Shown: piece after piece, positions 18,034 through 33,292 of the stretch | How positions within the stretch are numbered: the first letter of the stretch is position 1 | Layout: each line of letters starts with the position of its first letter | Assembly (NCBI GenBank): GCA_905221615.1 | Contig: CAJNDT010000511.1 | Coordinates: 1-64,000 of the forward strand | Reading direction: 5' to 3' | Source of the DNA: Symbiodinium sp. CCMP2592 | Taxonomy: Eukaryota; Sar; Dinophyceae; Suessiales; Symbiodiniaceae | DNA length: 64,000 bases | Program-made: the position numbers and the translations under genes | The notes under the pieces: generated by a model | What the model was told of the DNA's origin: nothing | What the model saw: only the letters and a program-made list of their open reading frames with translations | The model's database searches: none

Positions 18034-18418
18034 AAGGCCATCGCCTTCACGTCCTGGAACGGCCACGCCTTCTTCTACAAGAGCGCCCGGGCCGTGGCCG
18101 GCTGCGAGTCCGAGCAGCGCCAGCGCTTCCGCCGGCTCAGGCGCGACAATCCAGTGCCGAGTTCAAGGAGTGGCAGGCCCAAGGTCTCCATGCGCGGGTT
18201 GTGCGAGTGGTCCGCGCTGCGGCTGCGGGTGCCGGCGGCAGGAGCTGCTCGCCCGGCAAGGGTGGATGTGCAAGCTGTGCGGCGCCCCCATCTTCGAGAT
18301 CGACCACGTCATCCCGGTGCAGTCCTTCTCCGGACAGCAGCAGGAGCTGCAGGCCCTGTGCTTGGAGTGTCATCGAACCAAGACGAGCCTGGAGGGCAAC
18401 CGCAGCACCACCCTGGAA
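18034..18418 (+). pseudogene. HNH nuclease-containing gene, 5' part (interrupted by YR retrotransposon)
   Basis: Three frames together give a plausible protein: AIAFTSWNGHAFFYKSARAV from about 18,040, then a short block, then from 18,237 a clear HNH nuclease motif: CKLCGAP, IDHVIPV, LCLECHRTK (two CxxC pairs, DH, and a final H/K). The gene stops at 18,418, exactly where the A1 repeat of the YR element begins. It resumes at 27,315: joining 18,418 to 27,315 gives Leu-Glu-Ser-Cys-Phe-Cys in one frame. The gene was therefore the insertion target. The combination with polymerase-like and helicase-like parts downstream suggests a virus-like or mobile-element origin. It already carried frameshifts. 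Confidence 0.6.
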
Positions 18419-18680
18419 GACGTTCTCCGCGGGCGGACAGAGTTGTCTTTGATTTATAGTCGCCCATAGAGGCGACGCGAAACGTAGGAATTTCAAATTT
18501 TACAACTTATTTAAAACCCGTGCGCTCTTGATTTCATGTCACACTTTTACTTTGGCGTGGAATCAGTTGTTCGAGTGCAAAAGCCTTTGGCCTAAGTTCA
18601 GTGTGTCCGTAGGTCACGTGTCAGCACAGGCACATAGCTGGGAAACACATTGCAGTGACCGTTGACTGAACAATTTTTCT
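18419..18680 (+). repeat. Split direct repeat A1
   Basis: 262 bp, identical by eye to A2 (26,801-27,062). It starts GACGTTCTCC and ends in the 30-bp block that is repeated again at 18,855-18,884. It forms the left end of the YR retrotransposon. Confidence 0.9.
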
Positions 18681-18854
18681 ACCGGGTTCCCAGACATCAC
18701 GGTCGCTGAGCTCATGGAGGGCGTCCCACTGGTCGGTAGGCCTAGTAAGTCTTCCTTGTATGGGTGGAAGGAGCAGCCGGCGACCACAACGTTGGATGAT
18801 CTTCTTGTTTCCTCCGTGTGGAGGAACCCTGCGCTGGCGGCGAAGGGCAGAGTT
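18681..18854 (+). repeat. 174-nt copy of the element's own pol inserted in the leader
   Basis: Identical by eye and in the same orientation as 24,708-24,881 inside the pol ORF (the start of the RT region). It is flanked by two copies of a 30-bp block (18,651-18,680 and 18,855-18,884) that is otherwise the end of repeat A. This pattern fits insertion during reverse transcription by template switching. Confidence 0.9.
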
Positions 18855-18884
18855 TGCAGTGACCGTTGACTGAACAATTTTTCT
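18855..18884 (+). repeat. 30-bp repeat flanking the pol-derived insert
   Basis: Second copy of the last 30 bp of repeat A (first at 18,651-18,680; also 27,033-27,062). It begins TGCAGTGACC and ends AATTTTTCT, and lies 10 nt before the ATG at 18,895. Confidence 0.9.
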
Positions 18885-18894
18885 CTGCCGTCCC

Positions 18895-19197
18895 ATGGAC
18901 TTCGGCGACGCCCTCGCCGCTGGTTCTTCAGGCCGTTCCGAGGACTCTACCAGCACTCGCGAGCTTCACAGTCAGCACATTTACGAGCTCCAATTGGAGG
19001 TCAACGCCCTCCGTGCTGAAATCCAAACTCTCAGGTCCGCATTGCAGGCTTTGGAAGAGTCCCTTGCTCGTGCCTGGGTGAACCAGACCGGCCATCACCA
19101 ACGTCTCTCGTGGCTGGAGGGGATCATTCAGAGCTTGAGGTCTGCCTGTCGGGTGTTTCTTGAGCCTGGCGTGCAGTCTGCCGCAGATCTGCCATAA
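18895..19197 (+). CDS. Small coiled-coil protein of YR retrotransposon
   Basis: 100 aa from ATG 18,895, which lies just after the 30-bp repeat that closes the leader. Residues ~22-60 (HIYELQLEVNALRAEIQTLR and following) have Leu/Ile/Val spaced in heptads, typical of a parallel coiled coil. A second amphipathic helix follows at ~68-88. There is no zinc motif or catalytic signature. It ends 31 nt before the ATG of the recombinase ORF. It may be an oligomerising structural or regulatory protein; no function is recognised. Confidence 0.55.
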   Translation: MDFGDALAAGSSGRSEDSTSTRELHSQHIYELQLEVNALRAEIQTLRSALQALEESLARAWVNQTGHHQRLSWLEGIIQSLRSACRVFLEPGVQSAADLP

Positions 19198-19228
19198 TTT
19201 TGACCTTTGCTGACTTTTCAATTGGGAT

Positions 19229-21037
19229 ATGGCGGGTCAGCCTAACTCAGACGCTTTGCTGGGGCCATCCGAATTTCATGCGGCCTTGGTCGCTGCCGAG
19301 AGGCCGCTTGTTCTGGATGCTCAGTCTCTTCTCATCAAGGACTTCTCTTGGCACATAAAGGTGGGCGAAGCGTCTCGAAAGACTCCTCTTCTCCCTTGGG
19401 AGACGGGTCCCCTTTCTTGGATCTTTGGCAGGCCACTCAAGAGGCCGCGTCTGGAGCTACCTCGGGACCTGTCTCCCGATTCAGGATCTGCTGTTGATGC
19501 GGGGGTGCCTCTGGTTCATCCACAGCCGGTGCCCAACTTTGCAAGGGAGCGTCTTAGGATTGCAGCTCTCCTGGCTACAGACGACAGTTCTCGCTGGGAG
19601 GCTCTGAGGAAGTTCAGGACGCTGGTTTTGCTTGACCCGGCGCTGTCTCAGGTGGGGCAGTCACTTGCGGCTGAGGCTTTGATTCTGCGAGACGGCGATC
19701 AGATGAGGCGAACCTTCTTGGATGTCTTTCATGGCAAAAGTACAGCTACTTTAGTGAAGAGAGCCTCGTCGCTTTGGAGGTTTGCCAACTTTTGTTTTGA
19801 CAATGGTCTGGGAAATCCGCTCGGGGCTGGCGAGAAGGTTTTGTACCGATACATGTCGCACCTCGAGGAACATGGCAAGCCGACATCCGCCTCGGCTTTC
19901 CTTCAGGCCTGGAACTTCGCTGTCCACACTTTGAAGCTCTGTAGCCCGGACGCTCTGGGGGCCTTGTCCGCTAGAGTGAAGGGTGCTGCGCAGCGCATGT
20001 ACTCCTTGAAGAGGAAGCTTGTTCAGGCAGTACCTTTGACAGTGAAGCAGGTGAAAGGCCTGGAGTACGTGGTCCTGAAGTCCCCGTACCCCCATTGGCG
20101 AATCATTGCGGGTCACCTCTTGATGTGCATAGGGTCTAGCTGCCGATTTGCCGATTCCTTGCAGCTGACCAGCCTCAAGGTCAGCACTGCTCAGGGTGTT
20201 ACCCTGGTCGAGGCAGAGAGCTCGAAGTGGAAGACGGCTTCGAGGAAGGATCAGCTCCTTCCTTTGGCCTCCTTGGGAAAGTTCTTCGCTGAGGAGTCGT
20301 GGGGAGAAGTTTGGGCTAAGGAGCGCGAGGCTGCTGGTCTTGGCCTCAACCCGGCGCTCCCGGCTTTCTCCGAGGTGACTGGTGAGTGGCTTAACCGTCC
20401 TATGTCCACGGGGGAGGCCACTTGTTACCTTAGGGAGTTCATGACCGCGGCTTCCCAGATGACTGCTGGGTTAGGGTGTCATTCCCTGAAGTGCACGGTC
20501 TTGTCTTGGGCTGCAAAATCCACGGATGTCCCTCTCGCTGATCGACGTTTGCTGGGGCATCACATAGATCCGGGAGTGGTGTCGCCGCTTACTTATGCGA
20601 GAGACGAGCAGACCCGACTCATGAAGGTAGTTCATCTTATCGTGGAAAAGATCAGGAAAGGATCCTTCAAGCCGGATGCCTCGAAGGTCTGGCGCCTCGC
20701 GAAGCTGATTGAGTCTGGTGGCACGGAGCTGCTTACTGAACAGATTGTGCAAGGCGATCCCTCTATGGAGGAGTCCGATGACGAGGAAGGCGACTTCGGC
20801 GACGGGGACATGGCCGCTGGAGGAGCTTGCGCCTCGATGGAGCGGTTGAGTGCAGCTGAGCTGGACGTTGCTAAAGATAGTCGGATGCATGTCTACTCGA
20901 GGGTGGTGCACATCCTGAAAGGATCCAAGTTCCTATGTGGGAGGAACCTTTCTCCAAACTATGAGGCCATCGATCCGGATGTTCCCCTCCGAGACTTGCC
21001 GGTATGCGCTCAGTGCTCGCAGAAGTACCAGCAGTGA
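19229..21037 (+). CDS. Tyrosine recombinase of YR retrotransposon
   Basis: 602 aa from ATG 19,229. The N-terminal third is Pro/Leu-rich. Residues ~150-290 resemble a SAM-like core-binding domain. The catalytic domain shows R306 (SSCRFADS, box I), a lysine-containing hairpin (K333 region), H418-S-L-K421 where HxxR is usual, H444 (LLGHH) and nucleophile Y456 (SPLTYARD). The C-terminus is acidic (513-530) and ends with Cys pairs (C570, C593, C596) that could bind zinc. The enzyme should integrate the circular cDNA through a 3'-phosphotyrosine link. The Lys at the second Arg position is conservative but unusual for the superfamily. The gene lies upstream of gag, which differs from the usual order in DIRS/PAT elements. 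No frameshift or stop interrupts it. Confidence 0.85.
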   Translation: MAGQPNSDALLGPSEFHAALVAAERPLVLDAQSLLIKDFSWHIKVGEASRKTPLLPWETGPLSWIFGRPLKRPRLELPRDLSPDSGSAVDAGVPLVHPQPVPNFARERLRIAALLATDDSSRWEALRKFRTLVLLDPALSQVGQSLAAEALILRDGDQMRRTFLDVFHGKSTATLVKRASSLWRFANFCFDNGLGNPLGAGEKVLYRYMSHLEEHGKPTSASAFLQAWNFAVHTLKLCSPDALGALSARVKGAAQRMYSLKRKLVQAVPLTVKQVKGLEYVVLKSPYPHWRIIAGHLLMCIGSSCRFADSLQLTSLKVSTAQGVTLVEAESSKWKTASRKDQLLPLASLGKFFAEESWGEVWAKEREAAGLGLNPALPAFSEVTGEWLNRPMSTGEATCYLREFMTAASQMTAGLGCHSLKCTVLSWAAKSTDVPLADRRLLGHHIDPGVVSPLTYARDEQTRLMKVVHLIVEKIRKGSFKPDASKVWRLAKLIESGGTELLTEQIVQGDPSMEESDDEEGDFGDGDMAAGGACASMERLSAAELDVAKDSRMHVYSRVVHILKGSKFLCGRNLSPNYEAIDPDVPLRDLPVCAQCSQKYQQ

Positions 21038-21100
21038 TTTTGGGATCGAGGGGTGAGTTCTGTGTCAGAGTCCGAAATTTTGTCGGGTGTTCCTGGGCCT

Positions 21101-21405
21101 GACCTGGCGGAGCCCCAATTGGGCGTTGACCGCTGGGCGTTGAGGGCGCAAGAGCGGGAGCAAACTCGCCAGACAATTTGAGCCTCACCTTTGCCAGACC
21201 TGGCGGAGTCCCCCTACTGGGGGCGTTGGCCGTTGGGCGTCGAGGGCGTAAAGGGTGGAGGCGAGTCGCTATGACTCCTCAGATGATTTGAGCCTCACCT
21301 TATCCTGACCTAACGGAGACCCCACGTCGGGGCGTTGTCCGTTGGGCGTCGAGGGCGTAAGGTCGTGGGGCGCTCCTCACTTTGGGCATCCGTGCCTCAC
21401 CACAG
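21101..21405 (+). repeat. Three imperfect ~100-bp tandem repeats between YR and Gag genes
   Basis: Units begin at about 21,101, 21,197 and 21,307 with GACCTGGCGGAG-like sequence. Each contains a GGGCGTTG..CCG(T/C)TGGGCGT(C/T)GAGGGCG core and ends near GATTTGAGCCTCACCTT (first two units). The spacing is 96 and 110 bp. This is the non-coding spacer before gag; it may hold a promoter or RNA signal, but nothing specific is recognised. Confidence 0.75.
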
Positions 21406-21614
21406 TAACAGTGTGACCTGTCTCGCGCGAAAGGAATTTTGACTGCAGGCGCGAGTGGGGGCAGGCAGTCCTACGGGCGTTGTGCCGAGCTCTTGGTGGT
21501 TCTGATTCTCTGAGCTGCATCCAAAGTTGCCTTGCTGACGACAGTCCTGACTTGTTGGCTAGAGCGAGGAAGACGCAGTTCAGGCCGTCCTTGAGGGACG
21601 GGACAGTAGCAGCC

Positions 21615-22799
21615 ATGAATTCGACAATTGACAGCGAAGCCACGTTCGCTGCCCGGGCCACCGAGCTCGGCATGGAGCGCGATCTCTTGGACTTGTTTGT
21701 AAAGAACAACGTGAAGACGATGGGCGCGCTAGCCTTTGTGAGCCCCTATCAAATCGGTCAAGCAGATGAGAAACCGCTTCTTGAAGCCCTCAAAGCCCTG
21801 ATAGGGCGCGACTTGACCGCGAAGGAGCTGATCCCAGTCAGGCGATTGTGGTTCGAAGCCTCGACCACAGTGATGGGAGAGCTGAAGCAGAAAGTAGAGA
21901 GAAATGACTCTGCGGAACCAGTTCGTTTAGCCATCGCTGAAAGAACAACACGTCTGGACGAGCAGAAGAAGCGCCTTGTGGGCGTGTGCATCAACAGTGA
22001 GTCTGAGCCTTCTCACCGCCTTGTGGATGTTGTCTTCCAGCAGGGCGCGGATCAGCAGCTGACGTGGTTGCCTTGGGAGAAGTTGACAAGTCGGGCTCAT
22101 GAGTTGACGCATTCTCGCTCCGACAACGCCATCCTGTTTGACGCTCAGGGCAACATGAGGCTGACTAAGAAGATGCAGGAGAGCCAGTGTACTCTGACAG
22201 GTGAGCTCCAAGCTCGACAAGCGCTTCAGAGGCGCGCGTTGGCGTATGACCTCGCCCGCTTGTGTGACTATGCTGTCATGGAAACCTACCATGAGGAGTT
22301 GTTCCAGCTCCTCACTCGGCCTCCACCTCCCAATGCCCTCTACGTCTCAATGGGCCAAATCCGAGAAGCTGATAAGCACTTATTCATCAGGATCGCAGAG
22401 CAAACCCGGGGCTCTCTCACTGCTCGCCCGGATGGTGCTAAGCCCATGCAACAGCAGCTCGAGCTTCTCAAGAACCATCCTCAGGTGCAGTTCTTCTTGA
22501 TGCCACCGCAGAAGCCTCTCCGCTACTCTCCTTATGATGGCAAAGGGGAGGGCAAGAAGGGAGCTGGAGGCAAGGGAAAAGGGAAAGCATCGACCGGTGC
22601 TCCCGCAGGAGGGGCTGCGCAAGTGGATCTCCCATCTGGATGCAGTGCCAAACACAATGGCAAGCCAATATGCTTTGCGTACAACAGGGCGGGCTGTAAG
22701 TTTGCCAAGGATGGCAAGCGGTGCAGACGAGGCTTCCATATATGTTGGAAGTGTTTCAAGGAGCACAGCTATAGCGCTTGCCCGCTCGGCGGGGCCTGA
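21615..22799 (+). CDS. gag: Gag-like protein of YR retrotransposon
   Basis: 394 aa from ATG 21,615 to TGA 22,797-22,799; the frame is open further upstream (to 21,480 or before) but without an ATG, so 21,615 is chosen. The N-terminal ~300 residues are mostly helical and without known motif. Residues ~315-345 are Gly/Lys-rich. The end carries a Cys/His cluster (ICFAYNRAGCKF, RCRRGFHICWKCF, HSYSAC), a CCCH-like zinc finger suited to RNA binding. It should package element RNA. The pol frame continues directly after the single TGA with no frame change and no ATG for 90 codons past the first GTG, so Gag-Pol is probably made by readthrough. Confidence 0.8.
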   Translation: MNSTIDSEATFAARATELGMERDLLDLFVKNNVKTMGALAFVSPYQIGQADEKPLLEALKALIGRDLTAKELIPVRRLWFEASTTVMGELKQKVERNDSAEPVRLAIAERTTRLDEQKKRLVGVCINSESEPSHRLVDVVFQQGADQQLTWLPWEKLTSRAHELTHSRSDNAILFDAQGNMRLTKKMQESQCTLTGELQARQALQRRALAYDLARLCDYAVMETYHEELFQLLTRPPPPNALYVSMGQIREADKHLFIRIAEQTRGSLTARPDGAKPMQQQLELLKNHPQVQFFLMPPQKPLRYSPYDGKGEGKKGAGGKGKGKASTGAPAGGAAQVDLPSGCSAKHNGKPICFAYNRAGCKFAKDGKRCRRGFHICWKCFKEHSYSACPLGGA

Positions 22800-25700
22800 C
22801 TCGGTGGTGACACTTCTGAGGCTGCGGTGCATGACGCTGCTCCCCGGCTTCAGGCGACGGCCCTTCTCGACCTTTTCGAGTCGCTGCCTAATGAGGTTGC
22901 GCCTCGCCCTGGATCGACGTCTTCAACGAAGGTGTTTCAAGCTGGGGCCTACATTTTCGGTGTGCTGGCCGGTCTACGCCGGTCTTGCGCCTTGCATGCT
23001 GAGAGTATCAAACCCTTTTGCCGTTTTGTAGTGGAAAACACTCCTGAGGAGTTTGTTTTCAGTAACATTGCTGTCTTTGCGAACTTACGGACTGAGATGC
23101 ACCTAGATCCTAATAATCTGGAGGGGACTTTGAACTTTGCCATTGCCCTGTCTTCCTTCGAAAGCGGACAGATTCGACTTGAAGGCGGGCCGCAGGGTTC
23201 TGAGGCCCTTTTGGATGTCAAGACGGGCGTCTTCTTTGATGCCCGGACTCGACGCCACGGGACATGTGACTGGACAGGTCAGCGAGTTGTTCTTGTGGCA
23301 TTCAGCCTCAGGGGCTCCGATCGCCTTTCTGCAAAGGACACCCAGACCCTAGCCTCCCTAGGGTTTAGGCCCCCTTACCCGGGTGTAAATAATCTGCATT
23401 TGGCAAGCCAGCTTTCAACGTCAGATGCGCCGGCGCATGTCGCTGCAGCTTCGCCCGGCTTTCCTCCTGTGCCTCCGAATGCTCCTGCCTTTGTTGAGGT
23501 GTTCGCTGGCTGTGCTCGCTTGTCAGCTACGTTCGCCCGGGTCGGGTTCAAGGTCATCCCCTTTGATGGCCCTCGGAACCCGCATCAGCCTGAGCATCCT
23601 GTGTGCACGCTTGACCTGACATTGCCGATCTGCCAACAGATCTTCTTGAGCCGCCTCGAGAATTCCAGTGTCTTCTTGATTCACTTTGGGTTGCCTTGTG
23701 GCACAGGATCGCGTGCCCGCGAGGCGCCACTTCCCCAACATCTGCGAGCCCGTGGTGCTCCTCAGCCTCGCCCGCTACGAGACCATGTGCACGTCTTGGG
23801 CCTCCCTTCCTTGAGTCCTCAGGAGTCTGCTAGAGTGGAGGCCGCCAACCGACTGGCCGAGTTCGTGGTGCAAGTGCTTGTGCGAGCACATGATCAAGGC
23901 TGGCGCATTGTCATTGAGAACCCCGTTCGTTCTTGGATGTGGAGTGTTCTAGCCCACTTTGTGCGCGCGCTTGACAAGCCTCGTTTTCGGTCATGGTACT
24001 CCGAGCTGTTCACTTTTGATTTTGATCAATGCTGCTGGGGCGGTCGCCGTCGCAAAACTTCCAGGTTCTTGACCAATGTGCCCGAGCTTCGCTCCTTGGT
24101 GGCTTCTTGTCAAAATGATCACCCTCACGAGCCGTACCGCATCTTCAGAGGTGCGGCCTCTTCTTGGAAATTCGACACGGCTTCCGAGGCCGAGTATCCT
24201 TTGCCTTTGTGCGAACAGTACGTTCGCCTCCTGTGCCCGCTGGTCAATGCCCAGCCGCCAACCCTGCCTAGGCCTTTGGTTCGTCAGGTTCATCGGAAGC
24301 CTCCTCTCGTGCCTGAGTACAAATCCTTCACAAATGTCCGCCCTGAAAGTGGTGAGTTTCGCGAGCTCGCTTCAGATCGGGGTGTTGGCGGGAGCGGCTC
24401 AACTCAGGGCCCCACGTTTGGAGTTTTTCACTCTAAGGGTGAGTTCCTTGAGAAGGCGCTGGAAGTTGAGCACCCCTTTGATTCCGCCTTTGCCATTGAC
24501 GATCAGACCAAAAGGAACGTCTTCGAGTTGCTCACCATGGGTCTCCTGGGCCCTGCTCGCAGGCGGATGGACACTCAGAAAAAGCTTTCAGCGCTGAAGC
24601 GTGAGCTTGCCGTCGAGGAGAAGCGTTTTCACGCCTCCCTTCCGGAGCACGCCCAAAAGGTGCTCAAGGGGAAGAACATCTTGTTGTGGAAGAGGCTCCT
24701 TGAGGAGACCGGGTTCCCAGACATCACGGTCGCTGAGCTCATGGAGGGCGTCCCACTGGTCGGTAGGCCTAGTAAGTCTTCCTTGTATGGGTGGAAGGAG
24801 CAGCCGGCGACCACAACGTTGGATGATCTTCTTGTTTCCTCCGTGTGGAGGAACCCTGCGCTGGCGGCGAAGGGCAGAGTTGGGGACGACCCCGTCCTAG
24901 CCGAGAAAATCTGGCAGGCTACACTTTCGGAGGTGGAGAGGGGCTTCATCTCGGGGCCCTACGATTCGGAAGAGGACGTTAAGAAGGCCCTTGGAGTTTC
25001 TCACATCTGCTGCAGCCGGCGCTTTGGGGTGAAGCAAGGTGCAGGCGATGCTTTGAAGTATCGCCCCATCGACGACTTCAAGGAGAGTGCCATAAATTCT
25101 GCCTACCACGCGGTGGATCGCTTGCAGCTGCATGACGTCGACTATTTTGTTTCCTTGATAAGGTTTCTGGCGAACTCCGTGGACGACTCGGGTGCAGTCA
25201 ATGTCGAGCTGTCCGACGGGACAGTGCTGAGTGGGGTTGTGCACAGTGACTTTCGATCGGGGCGGCGCTGGCTTGGACGGTGTCTCGATCTGGAAAAAGC
25301 GTATAAGCAGGTTCCCATATTGGCCGCCCACTTGCCCCTAGCCGTCATAATGGTATGGGACCCGAACACCAGCCGCAACAGATATTTTACCACTTGGAGC
25401 ATGCCGTTCGGCGCATGCGCGGCCGTGTTTGGATTTAATCGCATATCCAGGTCGCTCTTACATCTGGCCTCGCACCTTTGCGCCGTCATAGGAGGCGTGT
25501 ATTTTGATGATTATCCTATGATCGAGCCTGCTGAGTCTTCTAGGATGTGCAGCCTCTCGGTGGAAACCCTGCTTGACTCCTTGGGATGGTCTTATGCCGT
25601 CGGTGACGACAAGGGTCAGCCTTTTGAGGAAACCTTCAACCTCCTTGGCATGCGGCTGGGCGTTTCTAGAATCATGGACGACATCCTCGAGCTCGAGAAC

Positions 25701-26543
25701 AAGCCCAGCCGGGTCCAGAAGCTCGTTGATGCAGCCAGGAGAATGGCTGCGAGTGGGGTTGTGAGCAAGAGTGACTCTGCATCCCTTCATGGCCAACTGA
25801 ACTTCATGGTGGGCTTCGCTTCCGGCCGTTCCTTGAAATTTGCTGCGCGAGCCTTGTCAAACCTTTATCACTTTCCACGGGATCAGCCTGACGAGGAGGT
25901 GAAGTCCTTGGGCCGCTACCTTGAGTCTGCGCTTCTGAGCTTGGAGCCCAAGGTCATCAGGCTGAGGTCAGGCGGGAGGCCGGTGTCTGTCTTCAGCGAC
26001 GCCTCTTACGAAGATGGTGTGGCGGCATGGGGCATTGTCTTGGCAGACCCTGTCTCTGGTGAGAGGCTGGTAGCTGGCGGGATTGTAGATGATCGCCTTG
26101 TGCAGTTTTGGCTTGATGAAGGAGTTGAACAGGTCATTTCACAGGCCGAGGCCTTTGCTTTGGTTCTGGCAAGGAGAGCTTTCAAGGACCACTTGCAGTG
26201 CCGCAGATGCGTGTTCTATGTCGACAATGATGCGGCGCGCTATGTATGCATTAAGGCAAGCAGTCCGAGCCGTACCCTCCTCTCCTTGGCACGCTCCTTT
26301 TACGCCAGTGAGTCTCATGACGGAGTCATTTCATGGCTGGAGCGTGTTCCTTCTGCGAGCAATATCGCTGATCTCCCTAGCAGGGGAGAGTGCGCTGAGG
26401 CGGCAAAGCTGATAGGAGGCAAGATTGTCGACTGCAGTCAGATTGCATCGGACCTGACTTCGGAAATTTTGTCCGTGGATGATCTTCCGTGGAGCCTTCT
26501 CGCTACGTCCTACAAGGACAAAGCACCTCCGATCTTCTTGTGA
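22800..26543 (+). CDS. pol: Pol of YR retrotransposon: 2OG-Fe(II) dioxygenase-like, C5-methyltransferase-like, RT, RNase H
   Basis: Open frame straight after the Gag TGA. Residue numbers count from Val at 22,827. Residues ~75-162 resemble a 2OG-Fe(II) dioxygenase of TET/JBP type: iron ligands H92-x-D94 (TEMHLDPNN) and H144 (RRHGTCDW), 2OG-binding R153. Residues ~221-420 resemble a C5-cytosine methyltransferase: FVEVFAGCARLS (motif I), LPC291GTGSR (motif IV Pro-Cys), IENP (363-366), then GGRRRKTSRFLTN. The RT shows DLEKAYKQ (D821) and YFDDY (892-896). The RNase H shows D1058, E1108, D1133 and D1182. The first ATG (residue 91) would remove the start of the dioxygenase fold, which argues for translation as a Gag-Pol fusion. 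RT and RNase H residues are intact. The two modification domains are inferred from motifs; activity is unproven. Confidence 0.82.
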   Translation, partial: LGGDTSEAAVHDAAPRLQATALLDLFESLPNEVAPRPGSTSSTKVFQAGAYIFGVLAGLRRSCALHAESIKPFCRFVVENTPEEFVFSNIAVFANLRTEMHLDPNNLEGTLNFAIALSSFESGQIRLEGGPQGSEALLDVKTGVFFDARTRRHGTCDWTGQRVVLVAFSLRGSDRLSAKDTQTLASLGFRPPYPGVNNLHLASQLSTSDAPAHVAAASPGFPPVPPNAPAFVEVFAGCARLSATFARVGFKVIPFDGPRNPHQPEHPVCTLDLTLPICQQIFLSRLENSSVFLIHFGLPCGTGSRAREAPLPQHLRARGAPQPRPLRDHVHVLGLPSLSPQESARVEAANRLAEFVVQVLVRAHDQGWRIVIENPVRSWMWSVLAHFVRALDKPRFRSWYSELFTFDFDQCCWGGRRRKTSRFLTNVPELRSLVASCQNDHPHEPYRIFRGAASSWKFDTASEAEYPLPLCEQYVRLLCPLVNAQPPTLPRPLVRQVHRKPPLVPEYKSFTNVRPESGEFRELASDRGVGGSGSTQGPTFGVFHSKGEFLEKALEVEHPFDSAFAIDDQTKRNVFELLTMGLLGPARRRMDTQKKLSALKRELAVEEKRFHASLPEHAQKVLKGKNILLWKRLLEETGFPDITVAELMEGVPLVGRPSKSSLYGWKEQPATTTLDDLLVSSVWRNPALAAKGRVGDDPVLAEKIWQATLSEVERGFISGPYDSEEDVKKALGVSHICCSRRFGVKQGAGDALKYRPIDDFKESAINSAYHAVDRLQLHDVDYFVSLIRFLANSVDDSGAVNVELSDGTVLSGVVHSDFRSGRRWLGRCLDLEKAYKQVPILAAHLPLAVIMVWDPNTSRNRYFTTWSMPFGACAAVFGFNRISRSLLHLASHLCAVIGGVYFDDYPMIEPAESSRMCSLSVETLLDSLGWSYAVGDDKGQPFEETFNLLGMRLGVSRIMDDILELENKPSRVQKLVDAARRMAASGVVSKSDSASLHGQLNFMVGFASGRSLKFAARALSNLYHFPRDQPDEEVKSLGRYLESALLSLEPKVIRLRSGGRPVSVFSDASYEDGVAAWGIVLADPVSGERLVAGGIVDDRLVQFWLDEGVEQVISQAEAFALVLARRAFKDHLQCRRCVFYVDNDAARYVCIKASSPSRTLLSLARSFYASESHDGVISWLERVPSASNIADLPSRGECAEAAKLIGGKIVDCSQIASDLTSEILSVDDLPWSLLATSYKDKAPPIFL

Positions 26544-26563
26544 CTGCATTCGGACGTCTGCTG

Positions 26564-26800
26564 GGGAATGACGGGTCCGTTGAAGGAAACAGGTTCGCCT
26601 GTGTTATCCTTGGATCGTCGGTGGTGCACATGTTTCTCCCCTTGATCTGATCGCAGTCCGAAGGTGCCAAAATAGCGAAGGTGTCCGAGTGATTGCAAGT
26701 GAAGCTTCAATATTTGAAGATTGCTTTTATAACATATTGATTGATTGGGCTATGCCCGAATATATGTTTGTTTTAACCACGTTTCGTAAATCACTAAGAC
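26564..26800 (+). repeat. Split direct repeat B1
   Basis: 237 bp, identical by eye to B2 (27,078-27,314). It starts 20 nt after the pol stop and ends ACTAAGAC, directly joined to A2. The B1-A2 junction is the sequence expected from the circular intermediate. Confidence 0.9.
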
Positions 26801-27062
26801 GACGTTCTCCGCGGGCGGACAGAGTTGTCTTTGATTTATAGTCGCCCATAGAGGCGACGCGAAACGTAGGAATTTCAAATTTTACAACTTATTTAAAACC
26901 CGTGCGCTCTTGATTTCATGTCACACTTTTACTTTGGCGTGGAATCAGTTGTTCGAGTGCAAAAGCCTTTGGCCTAAGTTCAGTGTGTCCGTAGGTCACG
27001 TGTCAGCACAGGCACATAGCTGGGAAACACATTGCAGTGACCGTTGACTGAACAATTTTTCT
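26801..27062 (+). repeat. Split direct repeat A2
   Basis: 262 bp, identical by eye to A1 (18,419-18,680). It is followed by a 15-nt C-rich spacer (27,063-27,077) and then B2. Confidence 0.9.
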
Positions 27063-27077
27063 CCCGCCCACCCGCCC

Positions 27078-27314
27078 GGGAATGACGGGTCCGTTGAAGG
27101 AAACAGGTTCGCCTGTGTTATCCTTGGATCGTCGGTGGTGCACATGTTTCTCCCCTTGATCTGATCGCAGTCCGAAGGTGCCAAAATAGCGAAGGTGTCC
27201 GAGTGATTGCAAGTGAAGCTTCAATATTTGAAGATTGCTTTTATAACATATTGATTGATTGGGCTATGCCCGAATATATGTTTGTTTTAACCACGTTTCG
27301 TAAATCACTAAGAC
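27078..27314 (+). repeat. Split direct repeat B2
   Basis: 237 bp, identical by eye to B1. Its last base marks the right end of the element; the interrupted HNH/helicase pseudogene resumes at 27,315. Confidence 0.9.
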
Positions 27315-28736
27315 AGCTGCTTCTGCCGGTTTGTGTACCAGGACTACGCGGCCTCGCCCAGGCTGCCGCCGGCCGCTGGTCTTTCAGCTGCAGGAGTGGG
27401 ATGACCTGCGACCCTGCCAGGGCATCGATGTGTGCCGCTGCCGAATTCACGGCCTGGCCAACGCTCGCTTCCCGCTGCCCGTCTTTTGTCCGCTGCACTG
27501 CATCGTCCCTGCGAGGGGGGCCAGCTGGCGGATCTCACCTGGGTCGACCTGCCCTGCGACCACCGCAAGGGCGTGCTGGACCGCTGGGCTGGTACGCCAA
27601 CCCCGTGTGCGCCTACATGCTCAAGGCAGCCCTGGCTGCCTGGAGCTGGTTTTGGAGTATGGAGCAGAGCTGGCCCGAAGGCGAGGAGGCGAGGAGCACT
27701 ACGCCAAGCTGGCCATCGACAGCTTCGTGGGCCGAATCTAGAACTATTCCATGAATTTAAGACCTCAAACCATCAGATGGATGGGGAGGGCTGCAGCTGG
27801 CGCCAGACCTTCACGGACGCGGCCGAGGGGACACATTGGGATCACGTCTTTGTGACGGAGCTGCTCTCGAACAGCAGCTATCATCGCCCGGTTCGACTAC
27901 ATCATGGGAGCCGAGTACGTCGCAGCAGCGCGGATCCGCCAGGCTCTGGCGGACGTGCCCAGGCGGTACCTCAAATGCATCAAGACCGATTGTCTTGTGA
28001 TGCAGGACGTCCCAAGAAGCACTGGCCCCGTGGAGCGGCTGCTGAAGATGTCGCACCGGGGCGGGCACGCCCGTCTATCGCTACGAGGAGGTCACCGGGC
28101 TGAAGGGCCAGTATCGGGAGCCGAGCATGGACGCGGAGCCCATCCGAGCGAAGTCGAGGTGGCGGCGAGTGGGGGACCCCGTGAGGGCTTTCCGGGGACG
28201 GGCAAGACCCATCTGGCCAAGAGGATCGTCGAAGCCTTGAGGGAGCACGGCTGCAATGCCACCTGGCTGGTCATCGAAGAACTCACTCACTTAGATACTC
28301 CATTGTGGGTGGACATAGCTTGTCTGAGTACGAACAAGAAGATTCGCTTCCTGCTGCTCGGGGACTTCCGGCAGCTGCCCGCCGTGCTGGATAGCTTCGC
28401 GGGCGCGGAGGTTTGCAAAGAGCTGAAGGACAGCTAGCTGCTGCACGATCTGGCGGGGGGCTGGTGCCACGAGCTCTCGGAGCTGGCGCTTCGATGAGCG
28501 CATCTTCAAGTTCTTGACCTGGCTGAGAGTCGGAGAGCGGGCAATGCTTCGCGGGCCTGGAGCTGCTGAAGCACACTCGGCTTTGCAGTGCGATTACGTA
28601 TGCTTCGGTTCAGGGCTTGACTCTACGAGGGAGAGTGTGGCTCTACGAGGTGGACAGTCCGTACTACACGCTCAAGCATGTGTACATGGGCTGCTCCCGG
28701 GCCACCAACTTGGAGCTTTTGCGCGTCCTGTGAGGT
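27315..28736 (+). pseudogene. HNH/polymerase-like/PIF1-like helicase gene, 3' part
   Basis: Continuation of the gene broken at 18,418. Protein-like segments in changing frames run throughout, with at least six frame changes. EEHYAKLAIDSFVG (near 27,690) resembles family-B DNA polymerase motif B (KxxxNSxYG). YLKCIKTDCLVMQD (near 27,975) may be a divergent motif C. At 28,187 GFPGTGKTHLAKRI is a clear Walker A, followed by WLVIEE and LLLGDFRQLPAV (motif III). After more shifts, 28,590-28,736 encodes ITYASVQGLTLRGRVW and MGCSRATN, the motif V/VI region of PIF1-like helicases, ending at TGA 28,734. An HNH nuclease, polymerase-like part and helicase in one gene recall viral or self-replicating elements. 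The helicase call is firm, the polymerase call weak. Confidence 0.6.
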
Positions 28737-29231: not shown

Positions 29232-29576
29232 TCACCGCACTGCCGGGCTTGGTGCTCTGGTGCCCGTTGCGGCAGTGGAGACACACCCTGTGTCTGATTG
29301 TTGCCCCCTCCATGAATGGGCAACCTCGCTGTTGGCCGTGGTACCGGCGCACAACGCGGCCGGTGGCCACTTGAAAGGCGAACCGGTCCAGAGGAACTCG
29401 GAGTTCTGAGGATCTGCTGCACAGTGGCAGCGAAAGCCGATCAGGACTTGATCCGGCGGGACGGAGCTCAGCCCATTGCAGTTGGTGAAAAGATGGATTC
29501 TGTCACCACGGGCTGTCTCGTAGAGATGCTCGTCGTCCCCCGAAAGGGGTTCCGGTCCCCTACGCCTGCGCCGCAC
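29232..29576 (-). pseudogene. C-terminal zinc module of copia element 2 (out of frame with pol)
   Basis: A 114-codon frame overlapping the end of pol. Its start reads EHLYETARGDRIHLFTNC then GFRCHC, giving His and Cys residues spaced like the module at the end of the accessory ORF of the first copia element (VYHLSDSC ... CKTC). In the second element a one-base shift separates it from the membrane segment encoded by pol. It may be a degraded tail of the polyprotein or be reached by frameshifting. Confidence 0.45.
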
Positions 29577-32500
29577 CCTTGGTGCAGCGGGCGGCGGTGG
29601 TGGAGGAGCTGCCGCAGGGGCGGACCTGGAGTCCGCTCACCCTCAGGTTCTGGCTCCTGAGCCCCCCTAGGCTGTTGCTCCCTCCTTTCCTCTTGCGCCT
29701 CTTGCGGCGCTTCTGGCCCTAGCCAGAGCTCCGTGGCCCTTTGGGCTGCACGCGGCGGCTCTTCGGCACGCTCGGCGTGGTGCTCGATCTCATCCTCGGG
29801 CTCCGGCTCCTGCCTGTCACGTCTGCACCTGCAGAGCCAGGAGACTAAACCCCAAAGCATCCACAGGAAGGCCAGGAAGCCTAGGGCCGCGAAGCCGAGC
29901 ACCAGCTCTGCGAAGTCGTGCCCTTGGGCCTTGGCAGGTCGAACCTGCAGCGCCACGATTGTGGCCATGAGCGCCGAGCTCGTGAGCTTGGTCGGCGGTC
30001 TCATCTTCCAGGGGCTAGCTTGGATCGTCTTGATCGTGCCTTTTTGGGCCAGAGCCTCGGTGGCGCCTGCGACCGCATCGAGGTCCACCATGCCCATGGA
30101 GGGCAGGGATTGCCGCACCTCCGGTCCAGTCTTCGCGTGCTTGGTAGCGAAGTTTGCCGGATTTTCGGTTCCCTTAACTTTTCTCAGTTCGAGAAGTTTG
30201 GCTCTGAGCGCGCCTTGGACAAAGAATTCCGCGACTTCCAGGTGTCTCAGCTTAGACCCTGGTCCTATGCGCTTGGCGGCTCCGATCGAGGCTGCGGAGT
30301 CTGCCCAGAGCCGCGGCACGCCGCAGGCTAGGGCAAAGTCCTTCTCCGCAAGTTCTCGTAGGAAGACAGCCTCCCTTGCTGCTCGTGACACTCCCCGGAT
30401 CTCCGCGTCTCCGCTGGAGGTGGCTGGGAGGCCGGGCTGTGTCTGGCAGCTTGTCTGGATGACTGCTCCCCCGAGACAGGCAACTATATTGTCTGTGCTC
30501 CTTCTCGTTTCTGGGCACCCTGCCCAGTCGGAGTCGGAGTAGACCTCCAAGTTCAGAAGGGCTGTGCTCTTGGACGCGGGGTCCAGCACAACTACCCTTC
30601 CAAACCGCGGGGTTGCCCGCAGGTATCGCGCGAGGGTTTCCGCAGCGAGCCAGTCGCAGACCCTGGGGTTCTGCATCCTTCTTGCCAGCTCTTTCACGGC
30701 GAACTGTATGTCTCGCCTGTCCGCCGACAGGTAGATAGCACTACCCACGGCGCTGCGGAACCTCGCGGCGTCACCCGCAGAGAGCTCCTCGACCTTGGTC
30801 AGGTCTAGAGGTCGGCTAGGCACGGTCCCCTTGTCTTTTGGACCGATGCCCAGCTGCTCGCACACATTCTCAGCGTGCTTGCTGTCGGGCAGCGTGAGGA
30901 TTGAGTCCTCTGTGCGCACCTTGGTCCTTCCCAGGACCTCCACCGCTGTGCCCGGCTCTTCCAGTTCTCCCACCGTTATCTCACAGTGCGTCGGGAGGTC
31001 CACCTCCGTGAACTTCAGCACTGCGGCCTTGGGGCCTGCGACACGGATGTCGTCGATGTGGTGGAGAAGGATCAGGCCGGACCGGCGGTCTAGGTACACG
31101 CACGGGTCCTTCACGCCCCGCTGGAAGTCGTAGTCCTTGGCCAGCTTGCCGGTGAGGACTTCTTCCAGCTCGTCCCTGTAGACGGAACCAGCCGTTCTTC
31201 GGCCGTAGAGGTTGCCGTCCACTCGGAACACAAAGTCCCTGAAGTGGTCTCGGTACCACTGCTGGTCCTTTGCAGGCTGCTCCAAGACCCATTGGTCAAA
31301 GAGCTCGCGCCACTCCACAGGCGCGTACATGTAGACCGGGCGGCCTTCCGCCGCACCGCGGTGCGGTCCCTCCCACCCCTCGTTGTGTAGCGCTGCTACC
31401 TCAAGTAGGGAGTGACTCTCGGGCGTTGGCGTTGGGACGAAAACGTCCAAGCCAGCTTCCTGTTCTGGGCTGTAGCGGGCCTTGACGTCGGCACAGGTAC
31501 ACCTTGACTTGTACCGCCCTTTGTCGCACTTGTCGACCCACTTTGCCCTGAACAGCTGCGCCCCGCGCGGTACTTCAGACCGCAGCACGGGCGTGATAGC
31601 GCCTCGGTCCCACAGCTTTCTTAGCTGCTCCTTGCGTGCCTGCTCGACCTGCTTGGGGTCGAGCATCCGGTCTAGCAGGTCTGTCACCTGCCCAACCCAC
31701 GCGTCCCGCTCGCCCTTGTGGTTGGTGAGCGGCGGGTCGGCTAAGGCAGCGATGTGCTGCCACACCTCGCGCTCTGTGAGCGCTCCTAGCCGCGGTGCCT
31801 TCTTGGGCTCCACCCGGCTCTTTGCTGCAGGCGGCTGCTGTGCTGCCGCTGCGCTCGCGGAGGAACCCGCAGAGTCGCGCTTCTGCCCCCCTTCGCCTGA
31901 GCCGTCGTTGGCGGCTGGGGCGGGGCTTGCCGCTTGTTGCGGCAGCGCGCTTGCTGCGGAAGGTCCTGCCTCCACGTCGGACGGCTCGTAGTCCGGTATT
32001 TCTGCGTTGGCCAGCTCCTCGGTAGGGCTGGCGTCCGGGAGCCTGCTGGCCTGCTCGGCCCCTTCGACTAAGAGGGCCTCGTCGTCGGGCCGCGGCCCGT
32101 CGCTGAAGAGCCAGGGCTCACCGGGCGGTTCTAGCCGCTCCGTTTCTTCGGCCGGCGTGGCCAGAGGGATTGGAACCATCATCGGCTCGCTGCGCTCTGC
32201 TGGCGCTGAGCGGCCAAATCTAGGGTTCCAAGGCAGGCCGCACGCTTTAAGAACGGCTGCCGTCTGGTGTCGGGTCTCCGGCGGGAGTCGCCTGACGCTC
32301 CTCACGTTGAGTGCGCCCGCTTCGGTTAGCACCACGTGGGAGTCGTCGCGCTCCAGCTTGCCGGCCCAGACCCCTTTGACCCAGCGCACCTGCGCTTTGT
32401 TCCCGGGCCTCGGGAGCTTAGCTAGAACGGTTTCTCCAAAGGAGCAAAGTGCTCCACCATAGTCGGTGCCAGTGGCTGCCCGATATGGTGTCACCCCGTC

Positions 32501-33292
32501 CGTCGACTTGGTCCCGAACCGGGCTTGCAGCCAGGCCACGTGCCTGACCAGCCACGGGAACAGGTTGGACGAAGTGTCCCACTCTAAGGCGGGGTAGTCC
32601 GCTCTTAGCTGCGAAAGCCAAGTGCGAACCTCGCCTGCTAGGTGTGCGTTCCTTCCCTCCACGGATCCTTGGCTTTGGTGTGACCCGCGAGGGGCGTCCC
32701 GAAGACGCACCCTAGCAGCTCCCAGCCGGCGGTGGACCGCACGGGCCACAGAGGCTATAGCGTTCTCTTGGTCGGCCTGCAGGGTGAACTTGTCGTACCC
32801 CAGGCGGTCCACGAACTGCTCCACAAGCCCTGCGGCGTAAGCCGCGTGTCTGTGCCCTTTGTGCGCCACGGGAACTGACAGAGTCCAGCCAGTGGCCCTG
32901 TCTGTGAGGTTCAGCACCGTGGCAAGCGACGCTTCTTCCTCAACTTCTTTCCCGTCCCGGCTGTAGAACTGATAATCCATGGTGACAAGCGGCGTCACCG
33001 GATCATCCGAGGGCTCACGGCGGCGGTGAGGGTCCTCGCGCGCCTTTCCCTCCACGCACTTCTCGCACCACGCCTGGTAGGGCGTGTGAGTGAGCTCGTG
33101 CTCGGCGCGTTCCTGCGCCGTGGGGTTGCGCGGTGCCCTTAGGCCGCGTGGCCTGGAGTCAGGCTGCTCGGCCTGCTCCTCTAGAGGGGCGGGGTTTCCC
33201 GCAGCCTCCTCCTCTTCAGCAGCCCGCTCGTAGGGTAGGAGGAACTGTGACCCTCTCTTGAGGATCGAGGCTCGGACGCCGTCGGGCCACAA
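29468..33292 (-). CDS. pol: Copia Pol of element 2: integrase, RT, RNase H, membrane tail
   Basis: 1,274 aa counted from ATG 33,292; the frame is open ~45 nt further upstream and overlaps the Gag-protease ORF by about 110 nt in the -1 frame, so a frameshifted Gag-Pol product is likely. The integrase has HELTHTPYQAWCEKC (HHCC finger), D106, D174 and E212 (QGSVEGRN). Residues ~360-520 are a Pro/Ala/Glu linker. The RT keeps HHIDDIRV (D747, D748), but motif A is missing: LLEVAALHNEGWEGPHRG runs directly to GRPVYMYAP, about 16 residues shorter than expected and without the catalytic Asp. The RNase H has VYSDSDWAG, GDAEIRG and LWADSAAS. A hydrophobic segment (LVLGFAALGFLAFLWMLWG) lies near residue 1,140. 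The reverse transcriptase is probably inactive. Confidence 0.88.
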   Translation of the reverse strand: MWPDGVRASILKRGSQFLLPYERAAEEEEAAGNPAPLEEQAEQPDSRPRGLRAPRNPTAQERAEHELTHTPYQAWCEKCVEGKAREDPHRRREPSDDPVTPLVTMDYQFYSRDGKEVEEEASLATVLNLTDRATGWTLSVPVAHKGHRHAAYAAGLVEQFVDRLGYDKFTLQADQENAIASVARAVHRRLGAARVRLRDAPRGSHQSQGSVEGRNAHLAGEVRTWLSQLRADYPALEWDTSSNLFPWLVRHVAWLQARFGTKSTDGVTPYRAATGTDYGGALCSFGETVLAKLPRPGNKAQVRWVKGVWAGKLERDDSHVVLTEAGALNVRSVRRLPPETRHQTAAVLKACGLPWNPRFGRSAPAERSEPMMVPIPLATPAEETERLEPPGEPWLFSDGPRPDDEALLVEGAEQASRLPDASPTEELANAEIPDYEPSDVEAGPSAASALPQQAASPAPAANDGSGEGGQKRDSAGSSASAAAAQQPPAAKSRVEPKKAPRLGALTEREVWQHIAALADPPLTNHKGERDAWVGQVTDLLDRMLDPKQVEQARKEQLRKLWDRGAITPVLRSEVPRGAQLFRAKWVDKCDKGRYKSRCTCADVKARYSPEQEAGLDVFVPTPTPESHSLLEVAALHNEGWEGPHRGAAEGRPVYMYAPVEWRELFDQWVLEQPAKDQQWYRDHFRDFVFRVDGNLYGRRTAGSVYRDELEEVLTGKLAKDYDFQRGVKDPCVYLDRRSGLILLHHIDDIRVAGPKAAVLKFTEVDLPTHCEITVGELEEPGTAVEVLGRTKVRTEDSILTLPDSKHAENVCEQLGIGPKDKGTVPSRPLDLTKVEELSAGDAARFRSAVGSAIYLSADRRDIQFAVKELARRMQNPRVCDWLAAETLARYLRATPRFGRVVVLDPASKSTALLNLEVYSDSDWAGCPETRRSTDNIVACLGGAVIQTSCQTQPGLPATSSGDAEIRGVSRAAREAVFLRELAEKDFALACGVPRLWADSAASIGAAKRIGPGSKLRHLEVAEFFVQGALRAKLLELRKVKGTENPANFATKHAKTGPEVRQSLPSMGMVDLDAVAGATEALAQKGTIKTIQASPWKMRPPTKLTSSALMATIVALQVRPAKAQGHDFAELVLGFAALGFLAFLWMLWGLVSWLCRCRRDRQEPEPEDEIEHHAERAEEPPRAAQRATELWLGPEAPQEAQEERREQQPRGAQEPEPEGERTPGPPLRQLLHHRRPLHQGCGAGVGDRNPFRGTTSISTRQPVVTESIFSPTAMG
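31351..31366. repeat. 16-bp palindrome at the missing RT motif A
   Basis: CCGCACCGCGGTGCGG is a perfect palindrome inside the codons where motif A should be. It may mark the deletion that removed the motif. Confidence 0.7.

Follow-up and report, generated by a model that had tools for sequence, protein, structure and literature searches.

Can one retrotransposon polyprotein carry both a domain of the kind that methylates DNA bases and a domain of the kind that oxidises them? The question is raised by a 64,000-nucleotide stretch of the dinoflagellate Symbiodinium sp. CCMP2592 (contig CAJNDT010000511.1, positions 1 to 64,000 of the forward strand; hereafter the window). For this stretch a preliminary description had claimed a TET/JBP-like dioxygenase domain and a C5-methyltransferase-like domain within the Pol of a tyrosine-recombinase (YR) retrotransposon, with intact reverse transcriptase (RT) and RNase H behind them. 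The element, which looks complete, lies at 18419-27314, and we consider it quite likely to be a young copy of a YR retrotransposon of a Symbiodinium-type dinoflagellate whose Pol joins a dioxygenase, a divergent C5-methyltransferase, RT and RNase H, and which would use read-through to express Pol and modify bases of its own complementary DNA (cDNA). The Pol open reading frame (ORF; 22827..26543, + strand, 1,238 aa) has the order dioxygenase, methyltransferase, RT, RNase H. That the first two domains are real, adopt the stated folds and retain residues of catalytic type seems to us highly likely.

The dioxygenase domain spans Pol residues 6–179 (22842..23363, +) and is placed among the 2-oxoglutarate-Fe(II) dioxygenases by its predicted structure, Foldseek and VIA-align matches, the Pfam Tet_JBP profile and conserved residues. 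Two template-free AlphaFold2 models were used, both built from alignments of this element family. Because the VIA-align list for the 501-residue model consisted mostly of methyltransferases, the dioxygenase was modelled and searched as a separate piece, and the resulting model (predicted local distance difference test, pLDDT, 91.7) has the double-stranded beta-helix dioxygenase fold according to Foldseek and VIA-align. Numbered from the GTG at 22827, the residues named in the preliminary description lie exactly where it put them: H92 (23100-23102), D94 (23106-23108), H144 (23256-23258) and R153 (23283-23285) in the dioxygenase, and C291 (23697-23699) and the Glu-Asn-Pro that begins with E364 (23916-23918) in the methyltransferase, all on the + strand. 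Its domain spans (75–162 and 221–420) were right in location but too short, the domains extending over about 6–179 and 216–476. Conservation was counted over 32 rows, namely the window and relatives with at least 95 matched domain residues (four domain fragments, P0004, P0011, P0014 and P0037, were dropped). H92, W149 and G151 are kept in all 32, D94, N97 and R153 in 31, and H144 in 30; in such enzymes the arginine after the distal histidine binds 2-oxoglutarate. H92, D94, H144 and R153 all fall within the 14 best-kept of 168 columns, whose mean consensus is 0.49 (rough P = 3.1e-5, treating columns as exchangeable and rows as given). This speaks against a catalytically dead fold retained for binding or for structure, and against a protein hydroxylase. 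We regard either role as very improbable, even with the prolyl-hydroxylase structures 4iw3 and 4j25 among the Foldseek matches of the dioxygenase model, and with 3/32 rows lacking one or more of the four: P0044 has lost D94 and H144 together with N97, P0006 has arginine at H144 and P0013 cysteine at R153.

The branch of the dioxygenase family is indicated by profiles and motifs, the structural scores being tied between TET/JBP and AlkB so that the fold does not separate these ancestries. Tet_JBP matched the domain at E = 5.6e-5 (22.9 bits), under its curated cut-off of 34.9, and we therefore name the domain TET/JBP-like and do not file it as a TET/JBP member. Among the dioxygenase members scanned, Tet_JBP was the sole recurring Pfam dioxygenase family; 2OG-FeII_Oxy_3 was found in 1/9 members, and AlkB families in none. 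The HxDxxN of the domain matches the human TET2 chain (HRDLHN), and in TET2 the asparagine of this motif contacts the base. Membership of the TET/JBP branch is probable. A repair or demethylating enzyme of AlkB type would instead strip alkyl or methyl groups (e.g., 1-methyladenine, 3-methylcytosine or N6-methyladenine) from the RNA or cDNA of the element, a role proposed for the AlkB domains in the polyproteins of some plant RNA viruses. The profile results and the TET2-like HxDxxN make this unlikely, and the AlkB-family motif RxNxTxR, which follows the distal histidine, occurs in none of the 36 domain segments. By motif, we reject AlkB; by fold score, it remains level with TET/JBP. Searches of solved structures by sequence gave no meaningful match for the window piece (best 0.72, Q-beta replicase), the domain alignments or one relative, and the viral contigs scanned gave no match.

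The methyltransferase domain (Pol residues 216–476; 23472..24254, +) adopts, in the AlphaFold2 model, a C5-methyltransferase fold of DNMT/HhaI type with DNMT3A as the best fold match. C5-methyltransferases carry Pro-Cys behind strand 4 and Glu-Asn behind strand 5; motif I is canonically FxGxG, and motif VI is canonically ENV. In the model, P290-C291 follows the strand at 282–288 and ENP stands at the end of the strand at 360–366. Over 75 rows, window included (seven short matches, P0011, P0018, P0026, P0042, P0047, P0055 and P0082, were dropped), E364 and N365 are kept in 75/75, P366 in 74/75, C291 in 73/75 and P290 in 54/75. Motif I reads FAGCA and motif VI reads ENP, neither being canonical, and we therefore call the domain C5-methyltransferase-like. 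PF00145 matched 0/10 domains (maximum E 10) and 0/30 Pols (maximum E 1) in scans whose HMMER filters discard most matches above about 0.1, and a PF00145-type Dnmt3 was rejected for lack of such a match. No firm match to this domain came from PHROGs or NCBIfam. Four further residues, C402, C428, H432 and H434 (24030-24128), are kept in 71–75 of 75 rows and could, judging from the alignment, form a metal site.

The altered motifs (FAGCA, PCGT and ENP) would also suit a domain that acts on RNA or merely binds nucleic acid, as would the short target-recognition space of about 36 residues in which the conserved cysteines and histidines sit. DNMT2 methylates tRNA; it is absent from the 50 VIA-align rows, among the matches listed, which excludes nothing. 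RNA methylation was raised for SymbioLINE-Dnmt by de Mendoza et al. (PMC5890265). The near-invariance of C291 and E364-N365 and the DNMT3A fold match nonetheless weigh against these roles, which we judge unlikely. For the two domains together, conservation and predicted fold argue against chance motifs in a Pol. The two domain assignments made in the preliminary description are supported: both folds are predicted as claimed (with Tet_JBP matching below its cut-off and PF00145 not at all), and the survey of relatives found both the metal-ligand residues (30–32 of 32) and the cysteine (73/75) conserved.

Behind the two domains a single open frame runs to 26543, in agreement with the claim that RT and RNase H follow. 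The RT (residues about 730–945; 25014..25661, +) is recognised by RVT_1 and an invariant DD. RVT_1 matched residues 806–942 of the window Pol (17.2 bits, E = 0.0043, under the cut-off of 29.6) and was found in 24/30 Pols scanned, window included (best 7.4e-7); the DD at 894–895 is invariant in nine sequences. The region at residues about 1050–1190 (25974..26396, +) is conserved in relatives, and we take it to be RNase H from its position and motif, a model match having been obtained in 1/30 members only (E = 0.17).

We assessed how widely the two domains are shared among 82 relatives, which came from three protein searches, each scoring about 8,000 candidates and seeded with dioxygenase-bearing Pols. 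Profiles made from our own alignments detected the methyltransferase in 82/83 Pols (window included) and the dioxygenase, whole or in part, in 36/83, a fraction that does not represent a natural frequency because the seeds bore dioxygenases and the candidates were limited. The dioxygenase was not detected in 46 of the 82 methyltransferase Pols, 37 of which have fewer than 120 residues upstream, too few to tell. Some rows are near-identical (the window, P0001 and P0012; P0020–P0022; P0032 and P0033), and the gene models P0001, P0003, P0004 and P0011–P0014 seem to skip parts. In a tree of RT–RNase H covering 73/83 Pols (P0021–P0023, P0035, P0038, P0040, P0054, P0077, P0080 and P0081 were left out), dioxygenase bearers are spread over several deep branches. 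Pairwise identities of the dioxygenase, which range from 0.18 to 0.77, are correlated with those of the RT (Mantel r = 0.73, with 0/5,000 permutations as high; 23/32 rows). The deep spread and this correlation favour an old acquisition followed by losses, which from these sequence comparisons appears to fit better than repeated recent capture, with 35/73 Pols too short N-terminally to judge. One Pol polyprotein here carries a methylating and an oxidising type of domain, both conserved despite great sequence divergence.

Whether the two domains serve one pathway is a separate matter. Wherever the dioxygenase occurs it precedes the adjacent methyltransferase (36/36), and with the phage precedent (PMC12730594) this order suggests that the methyltransferase might make 5-methylcytosine (5mC) on cDNA for the dioxygenase to convert to 5-hydroxymethylcytosine (5hmC). 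Single losses among relatives, however, speak against an obligatory write-then-oxidise pair: P0042 and P0055 keep intact dioxygenase residues but read PPSS or PPSR where the PC motif would stand (by eye), whereas P0044 keeps its methyltransferase beside the broken dioxygenase described above. The methyltransferase Pols that show no dioxygenase count in the same direction, as far as their upstream length allows. A single phage-like pathway is therefore doubtful, and each activity probably serves the element in its own right rather than as an obligatory step of a shared pathway.

How, then, might a Pol of this kind be produced and act? Pol lies in the frame of the Gag-like ORF (21615..22799, +; open from TTG 21480), which ends in a Cys/His-rich stretch and an in-frame UGA (22797..22799, +; context UGA CUC). 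The first ATG after this UGA is M91, within the dioxygenase domain, so that the GTG at 22827 is improbable as a true start. From the shared frame, the UGA and the position of M91 we infer read-through of the UGA as a candidate route to Pol. Read-through would yield a Gag-Pol protein and place both domains in the complex that makes cDNA, and since Pol makes cDNA they would meet both the RNA and the cDNA of the element. The methyltransferase would methylate C5 of cytosines in the element's own cDNA, and perhaps at the insertion site too, and the dioxygenase would hydroxylate 5-methyl groups, most likely converting thymine to 5-hydroxymethyluracil (5hmU) or 5mC to 5hmC. New element DNA would then bear host-type marks, and might not be treated as foreign or might receive chromatin handling that suits the element. 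The first part of this scheme has a published basis: de novo CG methylation by retrotransposon-borne DNMTs is reported, methylation of cDNA was proposed as a means to avoid recognition as exogenous, and Symbiodinium DNA is rich in CG methylation (PMC5890265). The dioxygenase step is our extension of that proposal by de Mendoza et al. Weighing against a strong effect of self-methylation, the element shows no CpG depletion (ratio 0.82, compared with 0.79 elsewhere in the window), and a statement on SymbioDIRS-Dnmt in section 7 of PMC5890265 agrees with this ordinary ratio.

We give even weight to the dioxygenase acting on element DNA or not, and consider thymine as its substrate less likely than not. 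It is decidedly unlikely, in our estimate, that the domain is a thymine hydroxylase generating 5hmU on element DNA, either while cDNA is being made or once the element has inserted, and that such mobile-element enzymes are a source of the abundant, repeat-enriched 5hmU of dinoflagellates. 5hmU is enriched over repeats in Breviolum minutum (Marinov et al., PMC11071213), and 12% of thymine is replaced by 5hmU in S. microadriaticum, as cited in the same paper. The words JBP and dioxygenase are absent from the main text of PMC11071213, and the portions of the literature examined name no enzyme behind dinoflagellate 5hmU; a search of the open-access PubMed Central (PMC) literature found no paper joining 5hmU and JBP in dinoflagellates. 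Elements such as this one would supply concrete, expressible candidates for who writes the 5hmU and CG marks of dinoflagellates, and why.

Comparison with known systems separates what is familiar here from what may be new. C5-methyltransferases in Symbiodinium DIRS-type Pols were published in 2018 (de Mendoza et al., PMC5890265). SymbioDIRS-Dnmt3 (PMC5890265) resembles the present element in being hosted by Symbiodinium, in its A-coding-B-A-B repeats, in having an ORF of its own for the tyrosine recombinase (recombinase-like here) and in a cytosine-methyltransferase-type domain within Pol beside the RT. It differs, in a comparison made by description, in that its methyltransferase domains were detected by PF00145 and group with Dnmt3 (PMC5890265), whereas no PF00145 match was obtained here; the present methyltransferase is therefore of a different lineage or one that has diverged much further. 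TET, JBP and dioxygenase are words absent from the main text of PMC5890265. DIRS1-like elements with a Dam-like adenine methyltransferase (PMC5890265) are likewise YR retrotransposons with an accessory methyltransferase, but the element here combines a C5-methyltransferase fold with a dioxygenase and is arranged YR-Gag-Pol. Fungal TET-bearing elements (Kyakuja, PHIS, Helitron and others; Kojima 2025, PMC12730594) are mobile elements with their own TET/JBP dioxygenase and conserved HxD/E and H, but they are DNA transposons or Helitrons. Phage hypermodification is similar in principle, a C5-methyltransferase and a TET/JBP enzyme being encoded in one mobile genome, but there the enzymes are separate proteins that work with glycosyltransferases (PMC12730594), unlike the single retrotransposon polyprotein here. 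No glycosyltransferase was found among the Pfam matches of the element's three large ORFs.

In the open-access PMC literature (Repbase reports and supplements lying outside it), no description of a retrotransposon with a TET/JBP-like domain was found among the matches listed. The element is thus a YR retrotransposon whose accessory domains include an enzyme type for which we found no report in retrotransposons, and its methyltransferase half is not new in kind. The preliminary description, which knew of no such pairing in a YR element, needs correcting on this half, since C5-methyltransferases of Symbiodinium DIRS Pols had been published (PMC5890265). If confirmed, the pairing of DNA-methylating and DNA-oxidising domains would be new for retrotransposons, which would join the mobile elements with a TET/JBP-like dioxygenase of their own.

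Upstream of Pol the element has, in order, a small ORF, a tyrosine-recombinase-like ORF and the Gag-like ORF. The small ORF1 (18895..19197, +; 100 aa) matches the N-terminus of gene model P0012 at 94% identity and that of P0014 at 78%; both models come from Symbiodinium sp. CCMP2592 and have the same part order as the window element. The 602-aa ORF that follows (19229..21037, +) had no Pfam match, and we take it to be a putative tyrosine recombinase from motif and position. The tyrosine recombinase signature is R-HxxR-H-Y; R306, H418-x-x-K421, H444 and Y456 are common to the window, P0012, P0014 and P0032, and HxxK replaces HxxR in these and in P0033. Its identity to the window ORF is 98.8% in P0012 and 55% in P0014. 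The Gag-like ORF has BLASTP matches in 15/82 relatives (gene models included), and its ATG at 21615 corresponds to where gene model P0001 begins. A 41-nt GC-rich unit occurs in three imperfect copies, spaced 100 and 109 nt apart, in the interval that separates the recombinase ORF from gag (21111-21360).

The element is bounded by split direct repeats in the layout A-ORFs-B-A-B, all on the + strand. Repeat A1 (18419..18684), at the left end, shares 265/266 bases with A2 (26801..27066), and B1 (26564..26800) is identical over 237/237 bases to B2 (27078..27314), at the right end; GAC stands at both element ends. When the element is excised in silico, the flanks fuse at GAC with a frame open for 49 codons before the joint (the span examined) and 30 after, and this in-frame empty site supports both the element ends and a young insertion. 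Open frames, near-identical repeats and the in-frame empty site led us to reject a decayed copy. At the insertion site (18272-18418 / 27312-27404) the interrupted frame reads through the empty site without a stop until 30 codons farther on; the left flank contains an HNH-like stretch (by eye). In the leader, a 174-nt insert (18681..18854, +) is an exact copy of pol 24708-24881 and sits between two copies (18650-18885) of the 32-nt end of repeat A, which differ by one mismatch, as if formed by a template switch during reverse transcription. Farther downstream, on the minus strand, a 1,274-aa ORF (29468-33292) that RVT_2 matches weakly (E = 0.029) would be a Copia-like Pol.
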